IMG/VR virus record: IMGVR_UViG_3300031825_000017 | Span: 1 to 50,870 of that record | Reading direction: 5' to 3' (one strand) | DNA: 50,870 nucleotides | Source of the DNA: a virus | Shown: piece by piece, positions 119 to 45,120 of the stretch | Layout: each line of letters opens with the position of its first letter | Numbering within the stretch: the first letter of the stretch is position 1 | Program-made: the position numbers and the translations under genes | The notes under the pieces: generated by a model | What the model was told of the DNA's origin: nothing | What the model saw: only the letters and a program-made list of their open reading frames with translations | The model's database searches: none

Positions 119-1171
119 CTACCGCAGAGGCTGCACCAACTCAGGTTTGCGCCGATACACCCGGTCCGTGATCCTGCTGTCAGCGTGGGCCATCAGCGCC
201 CGCGCATGCTCCAACGTAGCCGCATCGCTTGCGCATTTCGCGCGCAGGTCGTGCTCGTTGAAGCGCATTTTGACCTCCGTCTCCTTCAGCACGCGCTCCA
301 TGAAGCCGCGCCACATCGAATCCCATCCGCCAGCCCGGCCCGTCTCCTCGTTGAGATAGGATTGCCCGTCGCGATTGCAGAAGAGCCAGGGTGAGATGCG
401 CACCGGCCGCGCTTGCTTGGCCATTTCGACGCCTGCACGCAGCTCGTCCGTCCAGGCCAGGATGATCCGCTTTGCGGTGCTGCCGGCCGTCTTCGCCGGC
501 GTGACGTGAATGCCGTCATCCTGCAGGTCGGACATGGTCAGGCGCAGCAGATCCCCGCGGCGTAGGCCGGTGATCAGCTTGACCCGGATGTAGGCCTGCA
601 CCGCGAGGACGCTGCCCGCTTTGCGTTTCGACTCCAGCGACAGGCATTCGACGATCTCCCAGTCCTCCACGTAGCGCGTGCGCGCCTTCTCGCCGGCCAG
701 GCGCACCTCGCCCTTGAACGGGTGCCTGTCGATGATTCCCCACTCGACCGCCTTGGTGAAAGCGTGCGACAGGATCTCAATCTCGCGGCGCGCTGCGACC
801 TTCGATTGCCGGTGCTCGATGTACTGGTAGATCACCTGGGGCCGTACCCCGGAGATAGGGGCCTTGCCGAGCACGGCGCGCAGGCGCTTGATCGCCACCT
901 GATTCTGCACTCGCGTGCTGGGGGCCTTCGTTGGCACGACCTGGAGCGAGTACCGGTCCAGCAGTTGAGCGATCGTGCGCGTGTCTTCGGCGCTGGCCAG
1001 GCGCTCGGCCCAGACCTTATACGCCTCGGGCAGCGATGCGCCGAGCCGGAATTCCTTCTTTCCATCCCACATCGCTTCCAGTCCGGGCGGCACCTGGTAG
1101 TAATAGGCGCCCCGGCGTTGCCGCCAGCGCGTCGGCAGGCCCTTGTTCTCGGGGTTGCGCGGCTTGGGCAT
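119..1171 (-). CDS. int: Tyrosine-recombinase phage integrase
   Basis: This 350-residue protein catalyses site-specific integration and excision of the prophage at the adjacent tRNA. The catalytic set is visible: Arg in TGLRRGD (about residue 204), Lys in TPAKTAG (227), HDLR (307-310), His in LMAHAD (329) and the nucleophile Tyr in RVYRRKPE (339). The N-terminal half looks like an arm-binding plus SAM-like core-binding region. A start five codons upstream exists, but the chosen ATG overlaps the stop of the preceding DUF4224 gene as TGATG, the pattern seen throughout this operon. It is the last gene of the leftward early transcript, next to attL, as in many temperate phages. Confidence 0.95.
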   Translation of the reverse strand: MPKPRNPENKGLPTRWRQRRGAYYYQVPPGLEAMWDGKKEFRLGASLPEAYKVWAERLASAEDTRTIAQLLDRYSLQVVPTKAPSTRVQNQVAIKRLRAVLGKAPISGVRPQVIYQYIEHRQSKVAARREIEILSHAFTKAVEWGIIDRHPFKGEVRLAGEKARTRYVEDWEIVECLSLESKRKAGSVLAVQAYIRVKLITGLRRGDLLRLTMSDLQDDGIHVTPAKTAGSTAKRIILAWTDELRAGVEMAKQARPVRISPWLFCNRDGQSYLNEETGRAGGWDSMWRGFMERVLKETEVKMRFNEHDLRAKCASDAATLEHARALMAHADSRITDRVYRRKPELVQPLR

Positions 1172-1446
1172 CAGGCAGCGTCCCAATCAGGTTGCCACGA
1201 CGGCTGATTGGCGGCCTGGGGTGCGCCGCCCAACTGGGCTTCGATATGCGAGCGCAGTACCACTACGGTGCCGTCGGCGCGCACCTTGTGCTCAATGCCC
1301 ATGGCCCGAAGCGCGCGCACCTGCGCCGAGGATTTTTGCTTGTGCGTGAGGTCTTGGAGTTCCTCGCGCGAGAGGGTCAGGCTTGCCATCTGGTGCTCCC
1401 AGTATTTCCTGGTCGTTTCAATCATACGTGCTGCTGCTTCGGTCAT
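1171..1446 (-). CDS. DUF4224 domain protein (integrase-associated)
   Basis: This is a 91-residue protein. Its middle (LTLSREELQDLTHKQKSSAQ followed by an RALRAMGIEHKVRADG segment) matches the DUF4224 pattern, a small domain found just upstream of phage integrases. The function is not established; an excisionase-like or directionality role is sometimes suggested by position. It overlaps the upstream J-domain gene by ATGA and the integrase start by TGATG, so the three are almost certainly translated from one message. Confidence 0.75.
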   Translation of the reverse strand: MTEAAARMIETTRKYWEHQMASLTLSREELQDLTHKQKSSAQVRALRAMGIEHKVRADGTVVVLRSHIEAQLGGAPQAANQPSWQPDWDAA

Positions 1447-2132: not shown

Positions 2133-2663
2133 TTACGCATGGGGTTGGTAGGGAGCGGGCCGTACCGCGCCAGCGACGTACAGCGGGTGCTTGGGGCTGC
2201 CGTCCTTGTTCAGGCCCAAGTGGTGCAGCAGCGGCCCGCGGCCACACATCCGGACGATGCGCAGCACCTCCGCCGCGCGCGCCGGCGCCGCCTTGTGCGC
2301 GCCCCATGCGCAGATCACCAGCGAGCAGCGGTCCAGTGCATCCATGATGGCGCCGTCGTTCCGGTCAGCCCGGTCGCCCAGCGGTGCCGGATGGGTCAGC
2401 AGGCCGTCCGGATCGGTCGAGCGCAGCGGGTAGAGGTTGACCACCTCCAGCCGGCCGTACTTGCCGGCCAGCGCGCGCTGCAGGCACCGCATGATCGTTG
2501 GGTCGTTGACCTGGTGATCTGCGGTTGACGGGTTGAGCATGATGAAGCCCAAGGCCGGCCGGCTGCGGTCCCACTCGCGCCACAGGCGGTAGCGGTACTG
2601 TTCGCAGTCGGAGAGGATGCAGCCGGCCTCGCCGTCGAGGGTAGTTTCCGTCAGATGTTTCAT
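2133..2663 (-). CDS. DUF1643 domain protein
   Basis: This is a 176-residue protein with the DUF1643 signature: RYRLWREW, then LGFIMLNPSTADHQVNDPT, then RLEVVNLYPLRSTDP and VICAWGAHK. The family is widespread in phages and bacteria and its activity is not known. The reading frame is open further upstream, but the ATG at 2663 overlaps the stop of the helicase gene (ATGA), and family homology begins just after it. The extra upstream frame is antisense-like sequence. Confidence 0.8.
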   Translation of the reverse strand: MKHLTETTLDGEAGCILSDCEQYRYRLWREWDRSRPALGFIMLNPSTADHQVNDPTIMRCLQRALAGKYGRLEVVNLYPLRSTDPDGLLTHPAPLGDRADRNDGAIMDALDRCSLVICAWGAHKAAPARAAEVLRIVRMCGRGPLLHHLGLNKDGSPKHPLYVAGAVRPAPYQPHA

Positions 2664-2872
2664 GGCATGCACCGCGGGTTGCCACAGCACATGCCGCGCA
2701 CCACGTCGCCATCCGTCAGGGTGTCGAGGTCGTCGGCGGTATACCAGCGTGAATCGCCGGCGCGCAGCGCGGCGATCTTCACCGTCTCGCGCGCGCCGCA
2801 ATGGCATTCCAACCAAACCTCAGATTCGTCGGCGAGCGCCTGATCCGCCATCCACTGGTCGAAGGACTTCAT
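2660..2872 (-). CDS. Small Cys-rich phage protein, in frame at the end of the helicase ORF
   Basis: An ATG at 2872, preceded by GGAGGTGGCGGC, could start a separate 70-residue protein in the same frame as the helicase/methylase. It begins MKSFDQWMADQ and ends in CCGNPRCMP, with CHC and CC clusters suggesting a zinc site. It reads like an independent phage gene whose own ribosome binding site is now translated as a run of glycines inside the larger ORF. Whether it is made alone, as the fusion tail, or both cannot be told from sequence. Confidence 0.4.
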   Translation of the reverse strand: MKSFDQWMADQALADESEVWLECHCGARETVKIAALRAGDSRWYTADDLDTLTDGDVVRGMCCGNPRCMP

Positions 2873-4516
2873 GCCGCCACCTCCGGGAATCCGGCCCGGC
2901 TTCAGCATGCGCAGCAGCTCGGGCGTCAGGAAATCCATCTGCTGCCAGAAGTGCGAGTTGTCCTCGGTGTGGCCGAAGTCGTTGTACGAGGGCGAATACT
3001 CGTAGTGGTTGGCGAACGGGATCGAGGTCACGATCAGGTCGACCGATGCGTCCGACTGCCGGCGCGCCTCGTCCACGCAGTCGTTGTTCGCCACGCGGAA
3101 GAACCGGCCCTCGACCTCGATGCGCTTGACGCCGATCGAGCGCGCGAGGGTCTCCTGCATGGCGAGTTGGTTGAGGCCATACTGCTTGATGATGTCGGTC
3201 ATCTTCTGCACCATTTCGTCGTGACGGCGCCACTTTTCCTGCAGCGTGCGAAGGATCTCGCGCTCGGCCTCCGAGTGGATGATGTCCACACGGCAGGCGT
3301 GGGGCTGCTGGAACCGCTGGATGCGGTGGATCGCCTGGATGAAGTCGTTGAACTTGAACCCGATGCCGGAGAAGATCTCGCGATGGCAGTGCCGCTGGAA
3401 GTTGCAGCCGCTGCCGGCGATGATCGGCTTCGTGGAGAGCAGCCGGTACCGGCCCTCGCCGAAGTCGATGATGCGCTGCTCGCGCTCATCCAGATCCTGG
3501 CTGCCCCACACGCTGACTGCCTCGGGCAGCGCCTCTTGGATGGCATGCCGCTCCATCTCCAGGTCGTGCCAGATCACGAAATGGTCGTCGGGTGCCTCGG
3601 CCACCAGCTCAGCCGCTTTGGCCACGCGCGCGTCCAGACTGTTGCGCTTCTCCGCCGAGGCCGCTTGCACGCCTAGCGCCGGGTCGTTGAACATCAGGCC
3701 CTGGCCGATCTTGTCGGTGCCGGCCGTGCTGTAGTCGGTGGGTACCTCGTGGTATCGCACGTCGAGCGGCGGCAATTCATAGCCCTCGTCGCTGTAGCCG
3801 AGATCGGATGGCTTCTGGATGAACACCGCCCAGCTGCTCACCCACATCCAGAATTCCTGTTCCTTGTGCGGATAGAGCGTCAGGTTGCCGGCCTTCTCGC
3901 TGTCCCGCTGGAAGAAGCGGGTTAGCGCCTGACCAGTGTCCATCTGCCCAAGGAAGCCGGCGTAGTGGATCAGTTCCTTGAAGCGATTCGGGCTCGGCGT
4001 CGCCGTGTTGACCAGTTTGAACGGCACGCCTTCGAACAGCGGCAGAAACTCCTGATAGGTCTTGCTGCCGAACGAGCGCAGCACGGACGCCTCGTCCAGG
4101 CTGACGGCCGTAAACCGACGCGGGTCGATCTTCCCCTCGCGCACCGATTCGTAGTTGGTCAGGTAGTAGCGCTGGCCGGCGGCGACCTCGGCATCCGTCC
4201 GGATGAAGCGCAGGTCGATGCCGAGCATGCGGGCATCGCGGATCAGTTCTTGGCGCACACCCAGTGGAGCGACGAGCAGCAGCATGCCGCCGGCGCGTTC
4301 GACGGTCAGGCGCCCCCATTCGCACTGCATCACCGACTTACCCAGGCCGAATGAGGCGAAGATGCCGCGGTTTCCGCCCTTGACGGCCCAGCGCACGATA
4401 TCGCGCTGGTGGCCGAACAGGATCGGATTCACGTCACCCGGCGCGACGTCGAACCCGTCGAAGCGAGCCATCTTGATCTTGGCGCGCAGGAATTCGTCGT
4501 ATCGGTCCGCCGTCAT
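2660..4516 (-). CDS. SNF2-like helicase fused to a truncated N4/N6 DNA methylase
   Basis: This is a 618-residue protein. The N-terminal half is a superfamily 2 helicase with Walker A-like SFGLGKS, a degenerate Walker B region (SLDEASVLRSF) and TATPSPNR; the C-terminal helicase lobe includes AIHRIQRFQQ. A beta-class methylase segment follows with the catalytic motif TSIPF in place of DPPY, then the family hallmark EYSPSYNDFGHTEDN. After LRMLKPGR the sequence jumps into a different 70-residue protein. From memory, full-length relatives continue about 250 residues further and include a DPFGG-type AdoMet-binding motif, which is missing here. It is therefore probably active as a helicase at best. 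The start overlaps the methyltransferase stop (ATGA) behind a GGAGG site. Confidence 0.8.
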   Translation of the reverse strand: MTADRYDEFLRAKIKMARFDGFDVAPGDVNPILFGHQRDIVRWAVKGGNRGIFASFGLGKSVMQCEWGRLTVERAGGMLLLVAPLGVRQELIRDARMLGIDLRFIRTDAEVAAGQRYYLTNYESVREGKIDPRRFTAVSLDEASVLRSFGSKTYQEFLPLFEGVPFKLVNTATPSPNRFKELIHYAGFLGQMDTGQALTRFFQRDSEKAGNLTLYPHKEQEFWMWVSSWAVFIQKPSDLGYSDEGYELPPLDVRYHEVPTDYSTAGTDKIGQGLMFNDPALGVQAASAEKRNSLDARVAKAAELVAEAPDDHFVIWHDLEMERHAIQEALPEAVSVWGSQDLDEREQRIIDFGEGRYRLLSTKPIIAGSGCNFQRHCHREIFSGIGFKFNDFIQAIHRIQRFQQPHACRVDIIHSEAEREILRTLQEKWRRHDEMVQKMTDIIKQYGLNQLAMQETLARSIGVKRIEVEGRFFRVANNDCVDEARRQSDASVDLIVTSIPFANHYEYSPSYNDFGHTEDNSHFWQQMDFLTPELLRMLKPGRIPGGGGMKSFDQWMADQALADESEVWLECHCGARETVKIAALRAGDSRWYTADDLDTLTDGDVVRGMCCGNPRCMP

Positions 4517-6297
4517 ACTGCCTCCGTGATGCCGGCCACCGACAGCGCCACCGCCACCTGCCGCACCCACACCGGCGTGGCGGACAGCATGAAGGTCTCG
4601 CCCGCCTCGGCCAGCAGTAGGGTGGTGCCCATCACCTCGGCGATGGCCTGCGCCGCGTCGGGCGGCACGGCATTGCCGATACGCTCGCGCCAAGCCTGGT
4701 CGCTCAGGCCGTCCAGCTCGAGGTATTCCTCGGGCTCGATCAGCGACTGCAGGGCGGCCAGCTCCAGCGTGGTGAACGGGCGGTGCCAGGTGCCATCGAG
4801 CGCGCGGATGATCGCCACCAGCTTGTCGTTCGCCGCCGGCATGCGTGGATCGGCCACCGACCACCGGCCGTTGTCGTGCCCGGCCGCCGCCGATACCGCG
4901 CCGCTGGGCTGTTCCCACGCCACCACGCCATAGTGCCCGCCGGTCAGGTAGTTATCGCCCGGTTCGCGGCGCATACCCGGGCGCGGATCGGCCACGGCGT
5001 ATGCACCCTGGCCGGTCGTGCTACCGCTGATGACCGTGCCGGCCGGCGCGTCGAAGGGCGTAACCGCATACTTGCCGAACGTGGGTCCGGCGCGCCGCGG
5101 GTCCTGCACGCACTGGCCGGTGCCGTGGGCGCTGGTGACGGCGCCGGCGGCCTCTGCCCACGGCACGATCCGGAACTCGTTGTTGTGCTTGGCCGGCCCG
5201 GCGTGGCGAGGGTCGGCGACGCTGAAGGTGCCCTGGCCGGGATTGGTTCCGGCCGTGATGGCGCCCGAACTCTCGCCCCAGCATAGCACGCCGTATTGCT
5301 GGTACTGCGCCGCGCCGGCCGGGCCGCGCGGGTCCGCGATCGAGAACGTGCCATTGCTGGGCAGCGATTCGCCCGCAACCGCACCGGCATGCTCTTCCCA
5401 GCCCAAGACGCCCAGGGCGCCGTTGCGGCGCTCCGGCATGATCAGGTAGTCGCGCAGCTTGCCGTTCTCCACCGCCAGCTTGTTCAGGCTGCGCCAGTCG
5501 CTGCCGGCCTCAACGAACGCCAGCCTCACCCATGTCTTCCACTGCAGCGACGGCACGCGGTGCATTGGGCCGCCAGCGGAGTCGCCAGGCAGCGGCATGC
5601 GGCCCAGCACCGTGCCGACACCCTGCAGGCGGTGAATCTCCGGTTCGTACAGGAATGCCGGCACCTTGGCCGTGTGCCGCGCCACCAGCAGGAAGCGCTT
5701 GCGGCTTTGCGCCAACTTGCCGATCTCCCCGCAGTCGTGGGTCGTCTCGTTCACCGCATAGCCGTAATAGCGCAGGATCTTTGCGATCTGGTCCAGCAGG
5801 TGGCGTCCGCGCGTGGCGAGCCGCGGCACGTTTTCGAACACGATCAACTCGACCGGGTCATCCTTCCAAGCCTCGCACATCAGCCACACGCAGCGCAGCG
5901 TCAGCTCGTTGAGCGCCTGGTACTTCGGCGTGCGGCTCAACGCCTCGGACAGCAGGCCGGAGGCGCCCTTGCACGGCGATGAGATGAACACACAGTTCGG
6001 CCGCTCGTTGCCGGCGGCGCGCCGGATGTCGGCGGCCGTGGCCTCGCGCCAGCCCGCCGGCGGCTCCTTGCCATGGAACGCGGTGTACTGTTCGCGCGTG
6101 AACAGGTCCATCACCGTGCACGGCACGCCCACCAGTTGCTGGAAGTCGCGCGCGGCGGCCGGGTCCACGTCAATGCCGCCGATGCACTTCCAGGTGGCAA
6201 TCATGTTGCCGACTTGCGAGGCGGCCTTCTTGAAGCCCTTGGCGCCACCGCCGAGACCGCAGCAGAAACCGAACGTCTTGTATTCTCGGCGGATCAT
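4513..6297 (-). CDS. DNA cytosine-5 methyltransferase with a repeated insert
   Basis: This 594-residue enzyme transfers a methyl group to C5 of cytosine in a specific DNA site, probably shielding phage DNA from host restriction. Motif I is FGFCCGLGGGAKGF (residues 9-22), the catalytic Cys is in SPC (109), motif VI is ENV (155-157), motif VIII is QSRKRFLLVA, and motif X is RIGNAVPP. Between VIII and the end, about residues 300-485, lie five related units of about 35-45 residues. Each has a W or F, then GAV or GTV, then a DPR motif. They fall where the target-recognition region is expected. It overlaps both neighbours by 4 bp. Confidence 0.9.
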   Translation of the reverse strand: MIRREYKTFGFCCGLGGGAKGFKKAASQVGNMIATWKCIGGIDVDPAAARDFQQLVGVPCTVMDLFTREQYTAFHGKEPPAGWREATAADIRRAAGNERPNCVFISSPCKGASGLLSEALSRTPKYQALNELTLRCVWLMCEAWKDDPVELIVFENVPRLATRGRHLLDQIAKILRYYGYAVNETTHDCGEIGKLAQSRKRFLLVARHTAKVPAFLYEPEIHRLQGVGTVLGRMPLPGDSAGGPMHRVPSLQWKTWVRLAFVEAGSDWRSLNKLAVENGKLRDYLIMPERRNGALGVLGWEEHAGAVAGESLPSNGTFSIADPRGPAGAAQYQQYGVLCWGESSGAITAGTNPGQGTFSVADPRHAGPAKHNNEFRIVPWAEAAGAVTSAHGTGQCVQDPRRAGPTFGKYAVTPFDAPAGTVISGSTTGQGAYAVADPRPGMRREPGDNYLTGGHYGVVAWEQPSGAVSAAAGHDNGRWSVADPRMPAANDKLVAIIRALDGTWHRPFTTLELAALQSLIEPEEYLELDGLSDQAWRERIGNAVPPDAAQAIAEVMGTTLLLAEAGETFMLSATPVWVRQVAVALSVAGITEAV

Positions 6298-8971: not shown

Positions 8972-9279
8972 TGGTGATCCTTGATCTTTTCCAGGAATGC
9001 GGCCATCGGCCCGTATTTCACCCAGCGCGCCAGCGGCTGCGAAGGTCGGTTCTTCGCACCGTCGTGCAGCGCGTCGAGCAAGCGCTCGAATTGCTGCAGG
9101 CGGGCGGCCTGGGCAATTCCGGCCTCGCGCGCCACGTCGAGCAGGGACAGCGTCTCCGCCAACTGCCGGCGCAGCTCGGCGTTCTTTCGCTTCAGGTCGT
9201 CGGAGTCGCGCGCGAGGTCGGCGATGTCGTGGTTCATCCGATCAGCCTGGCGGATCGGCGTGCGGAGGGGCCAGTTCAT
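8968..9279 (-). CDS. Hypothetical coiled-coil protein immediately downstream of the RT gene
   Basis: This is a 103-residue protein with a heptad-rich stretch (about residues 16-60, DLARDSDDLKRKNAELRRQL), which should form a coiled coil. Its start codon overlaps the stop of the reverse transcriptase (ATGA), so it is translated with the retroelement genes. That position makes a role in the DGR possible, but nothing else supports it; homologous coiled-coil proteins are common in phage early operons. Confidence 0.55.
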   Translation of the reverse strand: MNWPLRTPIRQADRMNHDIADLARDSDDLKRKNAELRRQLAETLSLLDVAREAGIAQAARLQQFERLLDALHDGAKNRPSQPLARWVKYGPMAAFLEKIKDHQ

Positions 9280-10643
9280 GAGGGCTCCTTTCTGGCGGCG
9301 GTGGAATTGCGGTATGCCTTGGTCAGGCCGAAATCGACGGCATGCCCGCGGTAGCGGATGATCTTCGCCAGGTGCGCGCGGTCGGCGTGGCTGCCAGTCG
9401 CCTGCCGCAGCAGGCCGAGATAGCTGTTCGCCGCGGCATGCACCTCATGCGCTTCCATCTGCGCGAGACGCTGCGCGGCGACGTTGACGGTGCGGCGGCG
9501 AGTAGTGCGCACCCACGGACGGATGACTTGACCGACGAAGTCGATGCCGCGGCTCACCGGCTGCAGGATGGTCTTCGTCGGGTTCAGCCGGGCGCCGAGT
9601 CGGCGCGGCAGGAACGCCTCGATGTCATCGTGCGCGGCGTTGAGCCACTGTGGCGATTCGTGCAGCAGCAGGAAGTCGTCGACGTAGCGGATGTAGTGCC
9701 GCGCGCCGAGGACATGCTTTGCGCGCTGGTCGAGCACGTTCAGGTACACGTTGGCGAAGAACTGCGACGACAGATTTCCGATGGGCAGGCCGAGATGTGC
9801 GGGCTGTTCCATGAGGCGCTTGTGGGGCGGCACCCGGTCCATCAGCTTGGGATCACCCAGGTAGACGAAGTCGGCTCGTGGATCGTGCATCAGCACGAGC
9901 TCGGTCAGCGCGCGCCAGAACGGCTCGGGGATCTTCGCGAGCAGCAGATCGAGAAGAACGCGCTTGTCGATGCTGACGAAGAAGTTGGCCAGGTCGCATT
10001 TGAGGTAATACGCCGGCCGCGACCAGTTCTGCGTGATCGAGCGCACCTTGGCTTCGAGGCGTCGCGCTGCGTAGAGCGTTCCGTGCCCCTTGATGCATGC
10101 GCACGAGTCCGCGATGAACGAGCGCTCGAAGCGTGGGCCGATGCGGTTGTACAGCAGGTGGTGCACGATACGGTCGCGGAACTCGGCCGCCCACACCTCG
10201 CGGTGCTTTGGCCGATCGATGACGAAGCACTTCGAGCGGCCGGGCACATAGCTGCCATCCTCCAATTCGTCGTGCAGGCGGCACAGGTTGCGCTCGAGAT
10301 CGGCCTCGAACGCAAGCGCGCTTGCTGTGTTGCGTTTGGTGCGCCGGCAGTCGTGGTAGGCCACGACGAGCTCGGCGCCAGTGAATCCTTCTACTTCGTT
10401 CCAATCTGCTGACGACGACCGCGCGAAGCGCGGCGCTCTTGTGGTTGTTGTTCTGGTTGCCGTTGTTGAAGTTCTGGTACCAGGCGTAAGCGGAACCATC
10501 GCGCTATCTACGTCGCCCACCCGATCACTCAGGCGGGAAACTGCGCCGGACCCTGTCGCACACTGGCGGTCGGTTTCCGTTTTGCGCATGGCGGTGGCCT
10601 TGTGGGCCAGCGGCGCGACCAGATTGAAACGGCGCTCAGTCAT
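9276..10643 (-). CDS. DGR reverse transcriptase
   Basis: This 455-residue protein copies the template RNA into cDNA with errors at adenines. The polymerase palm is clear: first catalytic Asp in LKCDLANFF (217), PIGNLSSQ (287-294, the SQ variant typical of DGR enzymes where other group II-like RTs have SP), and the active site YVDD (320-323). The thumb follows (DFVGQVIRPWVRTTRRR). The start at 10643 has a GGAGG 11 nt upstream, and its ATG overlaps the Avd stop. Read from there, residues 51-81 are encoded by the template repeat in another frame, giving a Thr/Arg-rich stretch. Conserved RT sequence begins only around residue 85, so a later non-ATG start cannot be excluded. Confidence 0.93.
   Translation of the reverse strand: MTERRFNLVAPLAHKATAMRKTETDRQCATGSGAVSRLSDRVGDVDSAMVPLTPGTRTSTTATRTTTTRAPRFARSSSADWNEVEGFTGAELVVAYHDCRRTKRNTASALAFEADLERNLCRLHDELEDGSYVPGRSKCFVIDRPKHREVWAAEFRDRIVHHLLYNRIGPRFERSFIADSCACIKGHGTLYAARRLEAKVRSITQNWSRPAYYLKCDLANFFVSIDKRVLLDLLLAKIPEPFWRALTELVLMHDPRADFVYLGDPKLMDRVPPHKRLMEQPAHLGLPIGNLSSQFFANVYLNVLDQRAKHVLGARHYIRYVDDFLLLHESPQWLNAAHDDIEAFLPRRLGARLNPTKTILQPVSRGIDFVGQVIRPWVRTTRRRTVNVAAQRLAQMEAHEVHAAANSYLGLLRQATGSHADRAHLAKIIRYRGHAVDFGLTKAYRNSTAARKEPS
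10403..10493 (-). repeat. DGR template repeat (TR)
   Basis: A 91 bp sequence matching both variable repeats. In the reading direction of the target genes it would encode AYAWYQNFNNGNQNNNHK followed by SAALRAVVVSR. The AAC codons are concentrated where the targets vary. The first 35 bp on the + strand (10403-10437) are identical in all three copies and form the constant end, equivalent to the initiation-of-mutagenic-homing region. A 6 bp perfect hairpin (CCGCGC, loop GAA, GCGCGG) sits at 10419-10433. The TR lies between avd and the RT core, inside the RT open frame. Confidence 0.95.
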
Positions 10644-11013
10644 GACGGCCTTGACCTCCATGAAGCGGGCGCTTAGCAGCATATTTTTTCCAGGCCGTGG
10701 CTTGCTTGCTGATGCTCACGGTCAACCGGATGACACACCAATACTGCTTTGGCGAAATTCTCTCCATATCCAGCGCGAGGCGTAGCAGCAACTCAACCAG
10801 CTTTATCTTCTCTATCAGATGAGCAAGGTGTGGCACCTTGTCATCGGCGACGTTTGCGCGATAGACAAGAATCAGCAACTTGGAAGATTCCCGCACGATC
10901 TCCTCACCGATCAGGCGCTTGAACGAGCGTTCCATGTTGGCGACGATCTTCGTTACCCTACCGAAAAGGTCGTAGCCAGTCTTATAGACGTCGAGCTCGG
11001 TATGGAGAGCCAT
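10636..11013 (-). CDS. avd: Avd-like DGR accessory protein
   Basis: This is a 125-residue basic, all-helical protein (YKTGYDLFGRVTKIVANMER, then RANVADDKVPHLAHLIEKI, then LLLRLALDMERIS). The pattern of an N-terminal helix, R-hydrophobic repeats and a late conserved helix is that of the four-helix-bundle Avd family. In the Bordetella phage DGR, Avd forms a pentamer that binds the RT and template RNA and is essential for mutagenic homing. The position between a variable repeat and the template repeat is the classic order. Its stop overlaps the RT start. Confidence 0.88.
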   Translation of the reverse strand: MALHTELDVYKTGYDLFGRVTKIVANMERSFKRLIGEEIVRESSKLLILVYRANVADDKVPHLAHLIEKIKLVELLLRLALDMERISPKQYWCVIRLTVSISKQATAWKKYAAKRPLHGGQGRHD

Positions 11014-11027
11014 GGCGTGTCAAATGA

Positions 11028-11495
11028 TTAAATTATTGAAGGAATGAATCTGCTGACGACGACCGCGCGAAGCGCGGCGCTCTTGCGGTAGTAGTCCTGG
11101 GTGCCGTAGCAGAAGTACTGGAACCAGGCGTAAGCGGGATCGCCTTCGTAGTCTTCTTCGAGCCAGATGCTTCCCTTGGTGCATTCCTCGGGGAAGGCCG
11201 CCTGCAGAAGGCGCCCCTCGCGACAGTTCGGCAGCTTGAGCCCACGGCCTGCCGCATATGCTTTTGCATCGTCGTGCGGCGCTATCTCGCCCTCGCCGGC
11301 GTGCAGGATCAGGTAGTAGTCGATGGTGCCATCTTCCTTGAAGATCGGACCCGCAACGCGGGCGCCGGGAGGCAGCGGAATTACCGCGCGCTCGATGACA
11401 TATTCGGTGGTGCCTGATTGCTTTTCGTACTGCTCGATCAGCGCGCCGACGCGCGCGTGCTCGGACTTGATGTGTTCCAGCGTGACACTCGACAT
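11028..11495 (-). CDS. DGR target protein 1 (C-type-lectin-like end, carries VR1)
   Basis: This is a 155-residue protein without a signal peptide or membrane segment. The N-terminal ~40 residues are helical (EHIKSEHARVGALIEQYEK). The rest resembles a DUF1566/Lcl C-type-lectin fold, with KLPNCREG and SIWLEED before the variable end. Residues 121-150 (AYAWFQYFCYGTQDYYRK then SAALRAVVVSRF) are the VR. Nine residues differ from the template: Y125F, N127Y, N129C, N130Y, N132T, N134D, N135Y, N136Y and H137R. A GGAGGT site lies 5 nt before the ATG. It is probably a diversified ligand-binding protein; its ligand and location are unknown. Confidence 0.9.
   Translation of the reverse strand: MSSVTLEHIKSEHARVGALIEQYEKQSGTTEYVIERAVIPLPPGARVAGPIFKEDGTIDYYLILHAGEGEIAPHDDAKAYAAGRGLKLPNCREGRLLQAAFPEECTKGSIWLEEDYEGDPAYAWFQYFCYGTQDYYRKSAALRAVVVSRFIPSII
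11047..11137 (-). repeat. DGR variable repeat 1 (VR1)
   Basis: 91 bp aligned without gaps to the TR at 10403-10493. Ten positions differ: 11086, 11090, 11093, 11096, 11101, 11108, 11110, 11111, 11117 and 11122. Every one of them is an adenine on the coding strand of the TR. The 35 bp constant end (11047-11081) is identical to the TR and includes the hairpin at 11063-11077. The stop codon follows a few codons after the repeat. Confidence 0.96.
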
Positions 11496-11532
11496 GGAAG
11501 ACCTCCGGTGGTGGATCGAATGGGTGAATGAA

Positions 11533-11892
11533 TCAATTTTTGAATCTGCTGACGACGACCGCGCGAAGCGCGGCGCTATTGTGGTCGTTGCTCTGGCCGC
11601 CGTCGTAGAAGTCCTGGGACCAGGCGTAAGCGGAGTCCCACTCGACGTCGTCGTCGGTCCAGTACGCCTCTGGCTTCACGAGCTCTCGGTGCTCGTTGTA
11701 GATGATCAGCGCATCGACTCGGGTGAAGAGGACGCCGCCGACGCTCTTCGCCCATTCACGCTGCTGGTCACGCGGCCGCCGTGTGTCGGTCACTGCGATG
11801 ATCACGGTGTGCTCGATGTCGCCGTTCTTGTCGATGCGGCCGTGCAGATAGGTTTGGCCTTCGGCGAGCGGTGGGATTTGGATTTGCTGCAT
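11533..11892 (-). CDS. DGR target protein 2 (C-type-lectin-like end, carries VR2)
   Basis: This is a 119-residue protein. It has no signal peptide and shows DUF1566-like landmarks (REWAKSVGG, AYWTDDDVEW) before the variable end AYAWSQDFYDGGQSNDHN and the constant SAALRAVVVSRF. Its N-terminal part is unlike target 1, so it is not a simple recent duplication. Of three possible starts, the ATG at 11892 is preferred because GGGAGA lies just upstream; a GTG at 11919 is the longest alternative. It stands upstream of target 1 and shares the same template repeat. Confidence 0.88.
   Translation of the reverse strand: MQQIQIPPLAEGQTYLHGRIDKNGDIEHTVIIAVTDTRRPRDQQREWAKSVGGVLFTRVDALIIYNEHRELVKPEAYWTDDDVEWDSAYAWSQDFYDGGQSNDHNSAALRAVVVSRFKN
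11543..11633 (-). repeat. DGR variable repeat 2 (VR2)
   Basis: 91 bp aligned without gaps to the TR. Nine positions differ: 11578, 11586, 11591, 11597, 11598, 11604, 11607, 11613 and 11618. Eight are at template adenines of the coding strand. The exception, 11578, changes a coding-strand G to T (Lys to Asn) directly next to the constant end. The 35 bp constant end (11543-11577) and its hairpin (11559-11573) are identical to the TR. Confidence 0.96.
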
Positions 11893-11940: not shown

Positions 11941-12444
11941 TCAGGTGGCTTCCTGGAATTCCTCGGGCTCGTCGTACGACAGGCTCATGTGGACCTCCTG
12001 GCCGAGGAGCTGGCAGATCCTAGCCAGAGTCTTCTCGTCAGGATGGATCTGCACGCGGAAGTTGATGAAGACGGTGCCGCCTTCCTGAAAGTCGAAGGAG
12101 AGTCTGTTCACTCGTGCATCGTCGAGCACGATGTTGTCTTCCTTGCGCACCTGGCTGAGAATGCTCAGCACCTGGTGCTCCCAGTCGCCGTCCCACTTCA
12201 CGGTGCCCAGCGCCGGGTTCTTCAGGTTCGGCAGGTAGCCGGCATCGGTCACCAGGTCGCCCTGGACGGCCTCGTCCTTGTGGTAGAACGAAGACTTGAG
12301 CGTCGGCGAGAACAGGGTCAGCAGGTCATTGGAGACGCGCGCCTGCAGCTTCAGGTCCACGCCCAACACGCTGTCCTCACCGTGCTTCTCGGTGCGCGTG
12401 TTGATGTGCAGGATCTTGACCAGTTGGTTATCGAGTTCGAGCAT
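11941..12444 (-). CDS. Conserved hypothetical phage protein, 167 aa
   Basis: A soluble mixed alpha/beta protein beginning MLELDNQLVKILHINTRTEK and containing a probable beta-rich core (SFDFQEGGTVFINFRVQIHPDE). I do not recognise a named family. It lies between the recombination genes and the retroelement in the same early transcript, so a DNA-transaction role is possible, but there is no motif to support one. Confidence 0.6.
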   Translation of the reverse strand: MLELDNQLVKILHINTRTEKHGEDSVLGVDLKLQARVSNDLLTLFSPTLKSSFYHKDEAVQGDLVTDAGYLPNLKNPALGTVKWDGDWEHQVLSILSQVRKEDNIVLDDARVNRLSFDFQEGGTVFINFRVQIHPDEKTLARICQLLGQEVHMSLSYDEPEEFQEAT

Positions 12445-13321: not shown

Positions 13322-13906
13322 TCAGGCGGCGTGTTTGCTGCGGTAGCGGTGAAGGGTCAGGCACGACAGGAAGACGGCCCAGTCGTCCGGGTCCTTCATC
13401 TCGTGCAGGCGGTAGGTACCGTCGTCGCGCAACTGCAGCGTGTAGCGGCCAGGCACGCGCTTGCCGGTTTCCTGCTCGACGGCGTTCTTGTACGCGGCGG
13501 TCTGCGGGCCATAGCTCGGGTACAGCTCGCCGGTCTTGAGGTCGAGGATCCCGCGCGCGCCGTCCATATGGATCAGCCGGTCATAGGTGCCGGCGTACCG
13601 ATGGGCGGGATGGAACACACGTTGCTCCATGCCAAGGATCTCGAATTCCTTCTCGGCTCGGAACCGAATCCACGCGTCGAGGTAGGGACGCACGACGTCC
13701 GAGACCGTCGATTCGTCGAGATCGCCCTCGTCGTATAGTTCGGTCGCCTTGTGCACCGCGGTGCCGAGCTGGCGCTTGTATTCCAGCACCTCGGGGGCGA
13801 CGAACTTGAAGTCGACCAGGGGCGCGAGGATCTGCGTCACGCTCGGCACAGCGACGCCTTCGAACGTGTAGGTGTGCGACGGCTCGTCGAAGACCAGACC
13901 AGACAT
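13322..13906 (-). CDS. PD-(D/E)XK family phage exonuclease
   Basis: This is a 194-residue nuclease. It shows GTAVHKATELYDEG (a RecB/Cas4-like helix), a catalytic acidic residue in YAGTYDRL, and ILDLKTG with the D-x-K of the PD-(D/E)XK core, then YGPQTAAYKNAVE. Paired with the Bet-type annealing protein immediately upstream, it should resect double-strand ends to give single strands for annealing, as lambda Exo and Beta do. The start overlaps the bet stop as TGATG; the longer open frame upstream is a shadow of bet. Confidence 0.87.
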   Translation of the reverse strand: MSGLVFDEPSHTYTFEGVAVPSVTQILAPLVDFKFVAPEVLEYKRQLGTAVHKATELYDEGDLDESTVSDVVRPYLDAWIRFRAEKEFEILGMEQRVFHPAHRYAGTYDRLIHMDGARGILDLKTGELYPSYGPQTAAYKNAVEQETGKRVPGRYTLQLRDDGTYRLHEMKDPDDWAVFLSCLTLHRYRSKHAA

Positions 13907-14877
13907 CAGCAGTTCTCCCGGATGTAGTCCTGCAGCGCCACGAAGCCATCGCGCGTCAGGCCGTCGAGCGTGTCGGACAGCGACAGGCCGGTGGCGGCCA
14001 GCGCGTCCGCCACGGCGATGTCTGCGCTGCCGAGTTTTTTGCGTACGTACTGCTTCTCTCCGTCCGTGGCCAGGTCGGTGGCCTCGGCGTCTTCGAATTC
14101 GCGAGACTGCGTCGCGCGCTGGGCGGGCGGCTGCTTGGTGGCTTCGCGCTCGACGTGCTCGACCGGCGCGGCGCTCGTGAGTGGCTGTTCGATGGTGGTC
14201 GCCTGCTGCTGCTCGACCTGCTTCGGCTTTGCCTTGGGCTGCTGCACGGCCACTGCGGAGCCGGCAGCGGAGCGCGCTACGTCGGCGGCGCCCATATCGC
14301 GCTCGACGATGCGCTGTGCCTCGTCCTCGTCGTAGATGCCGGCGAAGCCGTAGGCCAGGCGTGCGCCCTGGATGAGCGTCTTGTGGCGCATCATCCGCGA
14401 CGGGTGGGACTTCCACGGCTGCATGCTCGGCCGAACCACCTCCGCGAAGCGCTCGCGGATCTTGATCGGCCGCGCGCGGTCCTTCCGGTAGATATGCACT
14501 TCCATCCAGACCGGCACCGTCTTGCCCTCGAAGGTGGTCGTTTCCTCGGACTCCACGAACTCGAAACCGTCAGACTGAGGGTGTTCGTTGATGATCCGCG
14601 ACCAACCGTCGACGCCCACCACCGGCACGATGCCGCCCTTGTCGGGGAAGGCGTAGATTTCCTTCGTGAATGGGTTCAGACCGTACTGGTCAGCCACGAT
14701 CAGCAGCGCGGCCATCTGCTCGTTGCTGATGTCTTGGTTGCCGTTCTGGCGGAACGCCGTGGCCTTCAGCGTGTTGAGAAGCTTGTCGGCCTCGATGCTG
14801 TACTTCGCCGCAAACTTCGCAACGAGGGTCTGTTTCTGGGGCGCGGCGGCCGGGCGCTCGGCAACTGCAGTAGACAT
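13906..14877 (-). CDS. bet: Single-strand annealing protein, Bet/RecT family
   Basis: This 323-residue protein anneals complementary single strands during phage recombination. Diagnostic sequence includes DKLLNTLKATAFRQNGNQDI, MAALLIVADQYGLNPFTKEI, YAFPDKGGIVPVVGVDGWSR and RMMRHKTLIQGARLAYGFAG, all typical of the phage Bet subgroup. The C-terminal third is a Gln/Ala/Lys-rich linker followed by a small domain. It pairs with the exonuclease downstream. Confidence 0.95.
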   Translation of the reverse strand: MSTAVAERPAAAPQKQTLVAKFAAKYSIEADKLLNTLKATAFRQNGNQDISNEQMAALLIVADQYGLNPFTKEIYAFPDKGGIVPVVGVDGWSRIINEHPQSDGFEFVESEETTTFEGKTVPVWMEVHIYRKDRARPIKIRERFAEVVRPSMQPWKSHPSRMMRHKTLIQGARLAYGFAGIYDEDEAQRIVERDMGAADVARSAAGSAVAVQQPKAKPKQVEQQQATTIEQPLTSAAPVEHVEREATKQPPAQRATQSREFEDAEATDLATDGEKQYVRKKLGSADIAVADALAATGLSLSDTLDGLTRDGFVALQDYIRENC

Positions 14878-16573: not shown

Positions 16574-17413
16574 TCACTCCACCTCAACGAAGTTGCCGGC
16601 GGCGTCCAGCGAATACCAGGTATCCGGCTTGACGCCATCCCGGCCAGCGATAGCCGCGCGGATATGGCGGATCCGGCCATAGTCGTCGCCATCGCCATCT
16701 TTGTCGCGGTAGCAGAGAACCATGGCGCTGCCAGCGCTAGCCTTCGCGCGACCCTCGATGCCAGTAGCAGCGGCCACGGCATGCTTGCCCTCAACGCTGG
16801 CCGCCGACTGGTAGCCGGTGTTCGTGGCCGCCGACCGGTTGCCGGTGTTCGTGGCCGCCGACTGGTCGCCGGTGTTCGTGGCCGCCGACTGGTCGCCGGT
16901 GTTCGTGGCCGCCGACTGGTAGCCGGTGTTCGTGGCCGCCGACCGGTTGCCGGTGTTCGTGGCCGCCGACCGGTTGCCGGTGTTCGTGGCCGCCGACTGG
17001 TAGCCGGTGTTGGACTCCGTCTTGCTCGACTCCACGCGCGACAGGATGTAGCTGACAGCGCGCGAGATGATCTCGGGGATCTTCAGTTCGGCCTTGATGC
17101 TGATGCGCGCCGCGGCGATCTTGCTGTCCGAGTTCTCGCGGCTCAGCTCGCCGGACATTTCCACCAGGGCGAAGCGGCTATCGGCCGGCGCGTAGTAGCC
17201 AAACACGTCGAGCGGGTATTCGCAGGCGTGGAAGCCACTGGCGCATGCCTCGACGCAGCCCTTGTGCTCGTAGGTGGCGCCCATTTCGTACTGGAAATCG
17301 CGGCACTGCATGTCCTTGTTGAAGCCCTTGTAGGCCGTCACGACGTGCTCGCCGCTGTCGGTCAGCGCCTGGTCGGCTTGGGGCTCTACTGCTGCGGGGC
17401 TTTGGCTCTGCAT
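16574..17413 (-). CDS. DUF7666-type phage protein with 9-residue tandem repeats
   Basis: This 279-residue protein is the first gene of the leftward early operon. Residues 20-110 match a phage domain beginning YKGFNKDMQCRDFQYEMG and continuing with HACEYPLDVFGYYAP and SGELSRENSDSK. Residues 135-206 are eight copies of NTGxxSAAT, where the variable pair is YQ, NR or DQ; such repeats probably stack as a beta-solenoid. A conserved C-terminal tail follows (AMVLCYRDKDG, DTWYSLDAAG). Function unknown. The ATG at 17413 follows GGAGAACAGG; a GTG nine codons earlier is less likely. Confidence 0.7.
   Translation of the reverse strand: MQSQSPAAVEPQADQALTDSGEHVVTAYKGFNKDMQCRDFQYEMGATYEHKGCVEACASGFHACEYPLDVFGYYAPADSRFALVEMSGELSRENSDSKIAAARISIKAELKIPEIISRAVSYILSRVESSKTESNTGYQSAATNTGNRSAATNTGNRSAATNTGYQSAATNTGDQSAATNTGDQSAATNTGNRSAATNTGYQSAASVEGKHAVAAATGIEGRAKASAGSAMVLCYRDKDGDGDDYGRIRHIRAAIAGRDGVKPDTWYSLDAAGNFVEVE
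16796..17011 (-). repeat. Eight in-frame 27 bp tandem repeats
   Basis: Each unit encodes NTG, two variable residues, then SAAT. In translation order the variable pairs are YQ, NR, NR, YQ, DQ, DQ, NR, YQ. The constant codons are nearly identical from unit to unit, which indicates recent expansion or repeated conversion. Copy number would be expected to vary between relatives. Confidence 0.9.
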
Positions 17414-17463
17414 CCTGTTCTCCATCGGGTTGGTGGGCACCCAGCGGTGCGTCGATGGAAATC

Positions 17464-44403: not shown

Positions 44404-45120
44404 ATGGACAGACGAGAGCGAGTAGGCGATCCCGAGGAAGCTATTCGGGAAGCGTTCGATGGGATGCGTGCCGGGCTGTGGACCGCGCTGCCAGGCACCA
44501 TCGAGAGCTTCGATGCCGAGGCGATGACCTGTACCGTCCAGCCAGGGCTCAAGATGCTCGTGCGCGGCCAGGACGGCACCATAACCAGCATGGCCCTGCC
44601 GCTGCTGGTCGACTGCCCGGTGCATTTCCCATCTGGCGGGAATTGTACGCTGACATTTCCTGTCACCCGGGGAGACGAATGCCTGGTGGTATTCGCCTCG
44701 CGCTGCATCGACGCCTGGTGGCAATCTGGCGGCGTGCAAGAGCAGGCCGAGCTGCGAATGCACGACTTGTCGGACGGATTTGCCTTTGTGGGCTTCCGAT
44801 CCAGGCCGCGCGCGCTGGCCGCGGTGAGCACGGGCACCGCACAACTACGCAGTGACGACGGCGAAACATACGTGGACCTGGATCCAGCCGGCCAGATTGT
44901 CAAGGTCAAGGCTCCCGGCGGCATGGTGCTGGACACACCGACAGTGACGGTAACTGGCGTGATGGATATCCAGAACGCCGACAGTGCGCCCACGGCATTT
45001 GCGATCAACGGCAAGACGCAGTTCAGCGGTCAGGTCTGGGCGAACGGAAAACGCATCGACGAGACACACAACCACAACGGCGTGCAGCCTGGCAGCGGAA
45101 ATAGCGGCGACGTCAACTAG
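44404..45120 (+). CDS. Baseplate spike, Gp138-type membrane-puncturing protein
   Basis: This is a 238-residue protein with an OB-like N-terminal part (GLWTALPGTIESFDAEAMTC, TVQPGLKMLVRGQDGTI), then HFPSGGNCTLTFPVTRGDEC. A beta-helical end follows with ETHNHNGVQPGSG, whose HxH motif resembles the metal-binding tip of phage spikes. It punctures the outer membrane during contraction. Confidence 0.85.
   Translation: MDRRERVGDPEEAIREAFDGMRAGLWTALPGTIESFDAEAMTCTVQPGLKMLVRGQDGTITSMALPLLVDCPVHFPSGGNCTLTFPVTRGDECLVVFASRCIDAWWQSGGVQEQAELRMHDLSDGFAFVGFRSRPRALAAVSTGTAQLRSDDGETYVDLDPAGQIVKVKAPGGMVLDTPTVTVTGVMDIQNADSAPTAFAINGKTQFSGQVWANGKRIDETHNHNGVQPGSGNSGDVN

Follow-up and report, generated by a model that had tools for sequence, protein, structure and literature searches.

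The window (the whole stretch of viral DNA analysed here, 50,870 nucleotides) carries a bona fide, complete DGR in which one template repeat (TR) serves two target genes. Taken as a whole, we consider it likely that this is a complete and probably active early-operon DGR of a temperate, Magia-like Burkholderiales phage, with the mechanism and the intracellular targets proposed below. As a DGR it adds one more member to a known family, and the use of two targets is already known. What makes the lineage worth testing is a short periodic array that replaces the hairpin behind the VR, a link to the RNA family RT-15, and early, non-tail targets, although earlier descriptions of the array and of the RT-15 link may exist.

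Components of the DGR

On the minus strand the cassette runs in the order target 2, target 1, avd, RT-15/TR and RT. Its features, together with the early-operon genes discussed later, are the following:

11533..11892, minus strand: target 2, 119 aa, C-type-lectin domain alone (predicted)
11543..11633, minus strand: VR2, at the 3' end of target 2
11519..11544, minus strand: 8-nt-period TT array behind VR2, TTCAAAAATTGATTCATTCACCCATT
11028..11495, minus strand: target 1, 155 aa, C-type-lectin domain preceded by an N-terminal helix of ~21 residues (predicted)
11047..11137, minus strand: VR1, at the 3' end of target 1
11023..11048, minus strand: 8-nt-period TT array behind VR1, TTCATTCCTTCAATAATTTAATCATT
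10636..11013, minus strand: avd, accessory variability determinant (PHROG 3206, Pfam bAvd)
10492..10674, minus strand: RT-15 RNA (Rfam RF03018 match), putative 5' leader of the template RNA, overlapping the 3' end of avd and abutting TR
10403..10493, minus strand: TR, 91 nt, repeated in VR1 and VR2 with differences confined to A but for one
9276..10589, minus strand: RT gene, reading frame through TR; presumed start at ATG 10589, or 10643, or 10499
119..1186, minus strand: tyrosine integrase, at the end of the same leftward gene set as the DGR
13322..13897, minus strand: PD-(D/E)XK exonuclease, early operon
13906..14877, minus strand: RecT/Bet-like annealing protein, early operon

The Avd protein matches PHROG 3206 ('Avd protein of DGR', E=1e-21) and, slightly below the curated cut-off, Pfam bAvd (E=2e-8). 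RT matches RVT_1 (E=1e-14) and PHROG 1423 (E=1e-111), aligns with brt of BPP-1 (tblastn, E=3e-31), and its translation carries IGNLSSQ, a DGR-type GNxxSQ motif, as well as YVDD. All DGR reading frames and RT motifs are intact in the window. Coordinates and profile matches agree with the original prediction, according to which RT, Avd, one 91-nt TR and two VRs are all present and form a complete DGR. A recount of the gap-free alignments returned exactly the predicted 10 changes in VR1 and 9 in VR2, with 18 of the 19 at TR adenines: each VR1 change falls at a TR A, and those of VR2 comprise eight at a TR A and one G-to-T. The final 35 nt are identical across TR, VR1 and VR2, a constant 27-mer occurs in exactly three copies in the 50,870-base record, and a constant-region search of the whole record found no further VR. 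With VR1 and VR2 at the two 3' ends and a single TR, the claim that one template serves two target genes also stands. A defence identity of the RT was rejected with PADLOC, the general RT model being the best match and the defence RT models weaker; no defence partner genes were found by the same tool.

Both targets are predicted to be single-domain C-type-lectin (Lcl_C-like) proteins with the VR at the C-terminus. Pfam gives weak Lcl_C matches on the single targets (E ~0.02), and the assignment is clear only across relatives, where Lcl_C was recognised in 29 of 31 for target 1 and 31 of 32 for target 2. Structure models, computed from input without rows from phage records, reached a pLDDT of 85 for target 1, with the Legionella Lcl C-terminal domain as the nearest fold, and of 93 for target 2, with 8q4e as the nearest. 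The closest solved folds for the targets are the Legionella Lcl C-terminal domain and Bd2740, followed by many C-type lectins, among them some that trimerise through a helical neck. Domain recognition yielded no secretion or virion-attachment domain in either target, and no tail homology was found for them.

The lineage and its activity

Nine phage records match at 62–76% identity (tblastn, phage records), with no further record above ~37%: Magia (twice), QDWS, zrk29-1, Haboob, phPA-G, SC_8, Cruim01 and LPPA56. The lineage set comprises 80 loci from IMG/VR and 51 more from GTDB genomes, the hosts of the latter being mostly Burkholderiaceae, Oxalobacteraceae and Rhodocyclaceae; in E. coli genomes the cassette had no match. 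The original prediction held a pair of targets to be less common, which is true for DGRs overall (two-target DGRs make up ~13% of cassettes, cited in PMC10743442, and PMC3521204 and PMC6642488 put multiple-VR DGRs at one seventh and 28.6%, respectively) but fails within this lineage, where two is normal. At least two VRs are present in 101 of the 116 loci with a detectable TR (two in 78, three in 23 and one in 15, some of the one-VR loci sitting on short contigs).

Several loci depart from the common arrangement. L129, L135, L137, L139 and L143-L145, with hosts in Massilia, Janthinobacterium and other Oxalobacteraceae, carry three or four VRs per single TR, some of them several kb away. The close relatives L012 (5919-6010) and L013 have an RT and an intact TR with no avd or targets in the stretch covered, the targets being lost or elsewhere. 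L103, L108, L114 and L125, in bacterial genomes, hold target homologues with RT fragments only and are apparently decayed DGRs.

The targets have been diversified to the same extent, with 43.7% of TR adenines changed in VR1, 42.6% in VR2 and 43.9% in other VRs across the lineage loci, which answers in the affirmative whether the VR1 and VR2 classes are equally diversified. The A rate of 98.8% across loci is inflated because the finder favours A mismatches; this bias leaves the 18 of 19 changes in the window and the counts from near-identical pairs unaffected.

The lineage is demonstrably active. Shewanella phage QDWS (OK094664) and zrk29-1 (OP650936), both of 47,902 nt, differ at 31 positions: VR2 accounts for 14, a third VR (44976-45066, adjoining recT) for 13 and the rest of the genome for 4. 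TR adenines underlie 26 of the 27 VR changes, and the two records have the same TR and the same VR1. As VR2 and the third VR have changed and VR1 has not, the VRs are rewritten independently. Six further pairs (L053/L054, L055/L056, L006/L010, L089/L090, L035/L037 and L038/L057) show VR changes nearly all at a TR A, with 0-1 changes in TR. The expectation that VR differences would be confined to TR adenines was therefore borne out, near-identical relatives differing almost only there. OK094664 and OP650936 (L093 and L094) state Shewanella baltica and Tenericutes bacterium as hosts, and OP650936 is titled Hujiaoplasma phage; one phage with two stated hosts means that at least one of these host assignments is doubtful.

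The window copy is probably active too, judging from these close relatives and from its own TR/VR pattern. A decayed, inactive DGR, of the kind suggested by those relatives that carry just RT fragments, is very improbable here given the intact reading frames and RT motifs and the expected pattern in the VRs.

Template RNA, RT start and acceptor array

RT-15 (RF03018) matches positions 10674-10492 over its full length (167 bits, E=1e-41; gathering threshold 82) and ends at the start of TR in the window. It abuts TR in all 12 relatives tested, ending at most 4 nt from the TR start, and its fold shows two-sided changes at 19 of 49 pairs. Judged by this placement and these paired changes, RT-15 is the leader of the DGR template RNA, whereas Rfam lists RF03018 as an sRNA gene.

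In most lineage members the template appears, in addition, to lie inside the RT gene. In 71 of 80 loci the RT-15 ATG site and the RT core are separated by a multiple of three nucleotides, at many different lengths, and in these frame-keeping loci the other two frames before TR are closed in 71/71 and 67/71 cases. Each of the 52 loci that lack a later ATG has an open frame from the RT-15 site through TR, and in each of the nine loci with a broken frame an ATG lies within TR or shortly after it (frame kept versus later ATG, Fisher p=3e-5, a value that ignores phylogeny and reflects about six independent events). The Magia RT is annotated from the ATG at the RT-15 site, and a 2012 paper (PMC3521204) already lists as a class those DGRs whose TR overlaps the annotated RT ORF. 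No purifying (codon-level) selection on the amino acids of the RT extension was seen. The extension would thus be tolerated rather than selected, and the case for an RT read through TR is therefore carried entirely by frame openness and the indel pattern. The lack of codon-level selection would also fit a translation start at a rare start codon just after TR, which would leave TR non-coding, and Haboob and phPA-G do have an ATG 11-12 nt after TR. We nevertheless regard such a start as unlikely, since in 63 of 80 loci no canonical start follows TR before the RT core is reached, and the frame is kept wherever a later ATG is missing and broken only where one exists. An RT start upstream of TR is thus the reading that we retain.

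As TR and VR share identical last 35 nt, the VR flank is the obvious candidate for a signal that separates acceptor from template. For phage DGRs, Guo et al. 2011 (PMC3240598) found the VR to be followed by a GC-rich hairpin with a GRNA loop and suggested that this element is a conserved requirement. A GC-rich hairpin was found behind the VR in all seven control phages, one of them imperfect, and in 3 of the 192 unique VR flanks of this lineage; behind the window VRs there is no hairpin with a GRNA loop. A hairpin/cruciform as the VR mark in this lineage was rejected, its occurrence behind VRs being not above chance.

What follows the VRs of every class is instead a repeated TT, at offsets 3, 11, 19 and 27. 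At least three in-register TTs are found in 96% of 192 VR flanks, in 0% of 91 TR flanks and in 4% of shuffles, and the mean number out of four is 3.1, 2.8 and 3.0 in the VR classes versus 0.95 behind TR (the first array unit, shared with the VRs) and 0.42 in shuffles. The pooled unit approximates WTYANNNM and the array is T-rich. Both strands of the 50.9 kb window hold only three 4-fold arrays, two of which are the VR flanks. The register is the same in target 1, target 2 and the unlinked third targets, and in target 2 the last two TTs fall beyond the stop codon. Coding or gene order does not explain the array, because the target 2 units pass the stop and the genes downstream of the third targets differ. 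From its conservation only, we infer that the array marks the acceptor and would keep the transfer one-way. Since it overlaps a stop codon and sits between genes, it might instead be a signal for transcription, translation or mRNA stability. We find this improbable, as such a signal would hardly keep an identical register in front of different downstream genes, run past the target 2 stop, and be absent behind TR.

Mechanistically, one transcript would carry the folded RT-15 leader, TR and the RT message. RT, together with Avd, would copy TR with errors at adenines, and the cDNA would replace the 3' end of either target, independently of the other one. The 8-nt-period TT array behind each VR, absent at TR, would do the job of the BPP-1 hairpin/cruciform. 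This would yield two small C-type-lectin proteins, each with about 10 variable residues located where other DGR targets with this fold are variable, in the C-terminal hairpin region.

Early-operon targets and comparison with known systems

The targets sit with recT, the exonuclease, a CI-like repressor and the integrase on the leftward strand, while the tail genes lie at 37-50 kb on the opposite strand. Early genes are found near the DGR in 78 of 138 loci and late genes in 4 of 138, with markers taken from only three phages, so that divergent genes may escape them. A constant-region search found no VR in the window's own tail fibre genes. The early gene set also includes, at 2660-6297, a helicase/methyltransferase-like gene and a cytosine methyltransferase, with matches to the methyltransferase models in the defence library. 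Directly upstream of target 2, the gene at 11941-12444 has homologues in 15 of 138 loci and no family match, and positions 16574-17440 encode a protein with many tandem NTG-x-SAA repeats (solenoid-like).

Given that the targets lie with recT, the exonuclease and the integrase, and that domain recognition returned neither a secretion nor a virion-attachment domain, we consider a role inside the host cell the most likely, in which they would bind variable factors of the host or of rival phages. The targets could also be receptor-binding parts added to the virion, the DGR then switching host range as in BPP-1: most studied phage DGR targets are tail proteins (PMC8144416), the C-type-lectin fold is compatible with such a role, and the authors of the Magia study proposed adaptation or host-range change (PMC7883833). 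A virion role appears rather unlikely to us, given the distance of these genes from the tail module, the missing attachment domain and tail fibre genes devoid of a VR. Action inside the cell remains our preferred reading.

Among known systems, Burkholderia phage Magia (PMC7883833, MT701587) likewise has RT, Avd, RT-15, TR and a tandem target pair in an early operon, and its tail-region DNA is ~75% identical over 23% of the query. Unlike the window, Magia has a third target, gp57, close to the immunity region. The targets named in the Magia study are genes 47 and 57; gene 46, which is homologous to target 1, is not among them (PMC7883833). BPP-1 shares RT (32% identity), Avd, A mutagenesis of TR/VR, a C-type-lectin target and a VR at the gene 3' end, and differs in its one tail target, in the hairpin/cruciform behind the VR and in a TR outside brt, which starts 145 nt after TR. 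The Tentaclin-type DGRs of gut phages (PMC10743442) also have two different C-type-lectin targets per single TR, but one VR lies near the gene 5' end and the targets are proposed receptor-binding proteins (PMC10743442). Finally, DGR classes G2/G4 (PMC6642488) and group 3 (PMC3521204) have at least two VRs from one TR, in hosts that include Burkholderia, Ralstonia and Pseudomonas; the passages of these sources that describe them contain no frame analysis, RT-15 link, array or early-operon context.

It is conceivable, although we would put it somewhat short of an even chance, that these loci form a large DGR lineage of temperate proteobacterial phages with a TT-array address in place of a hairpin/cruciform, a template inside the RT gene behind a structured leader, and early, non-virion lectins aimed inside the cell. 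How DGRs discriminate target from template is known mainly from BPP-1 (hairpin/cruciform, PMC3240598), and an active, hairpin-free lineage with a short periodic array offers a second, portable and directly testable address signal. Through its link to the DGR, the RNA family RT-15, which is found in this lineage, gains a role. Early, non-tail targets, if true, would widen the purposes of phage DGRs.
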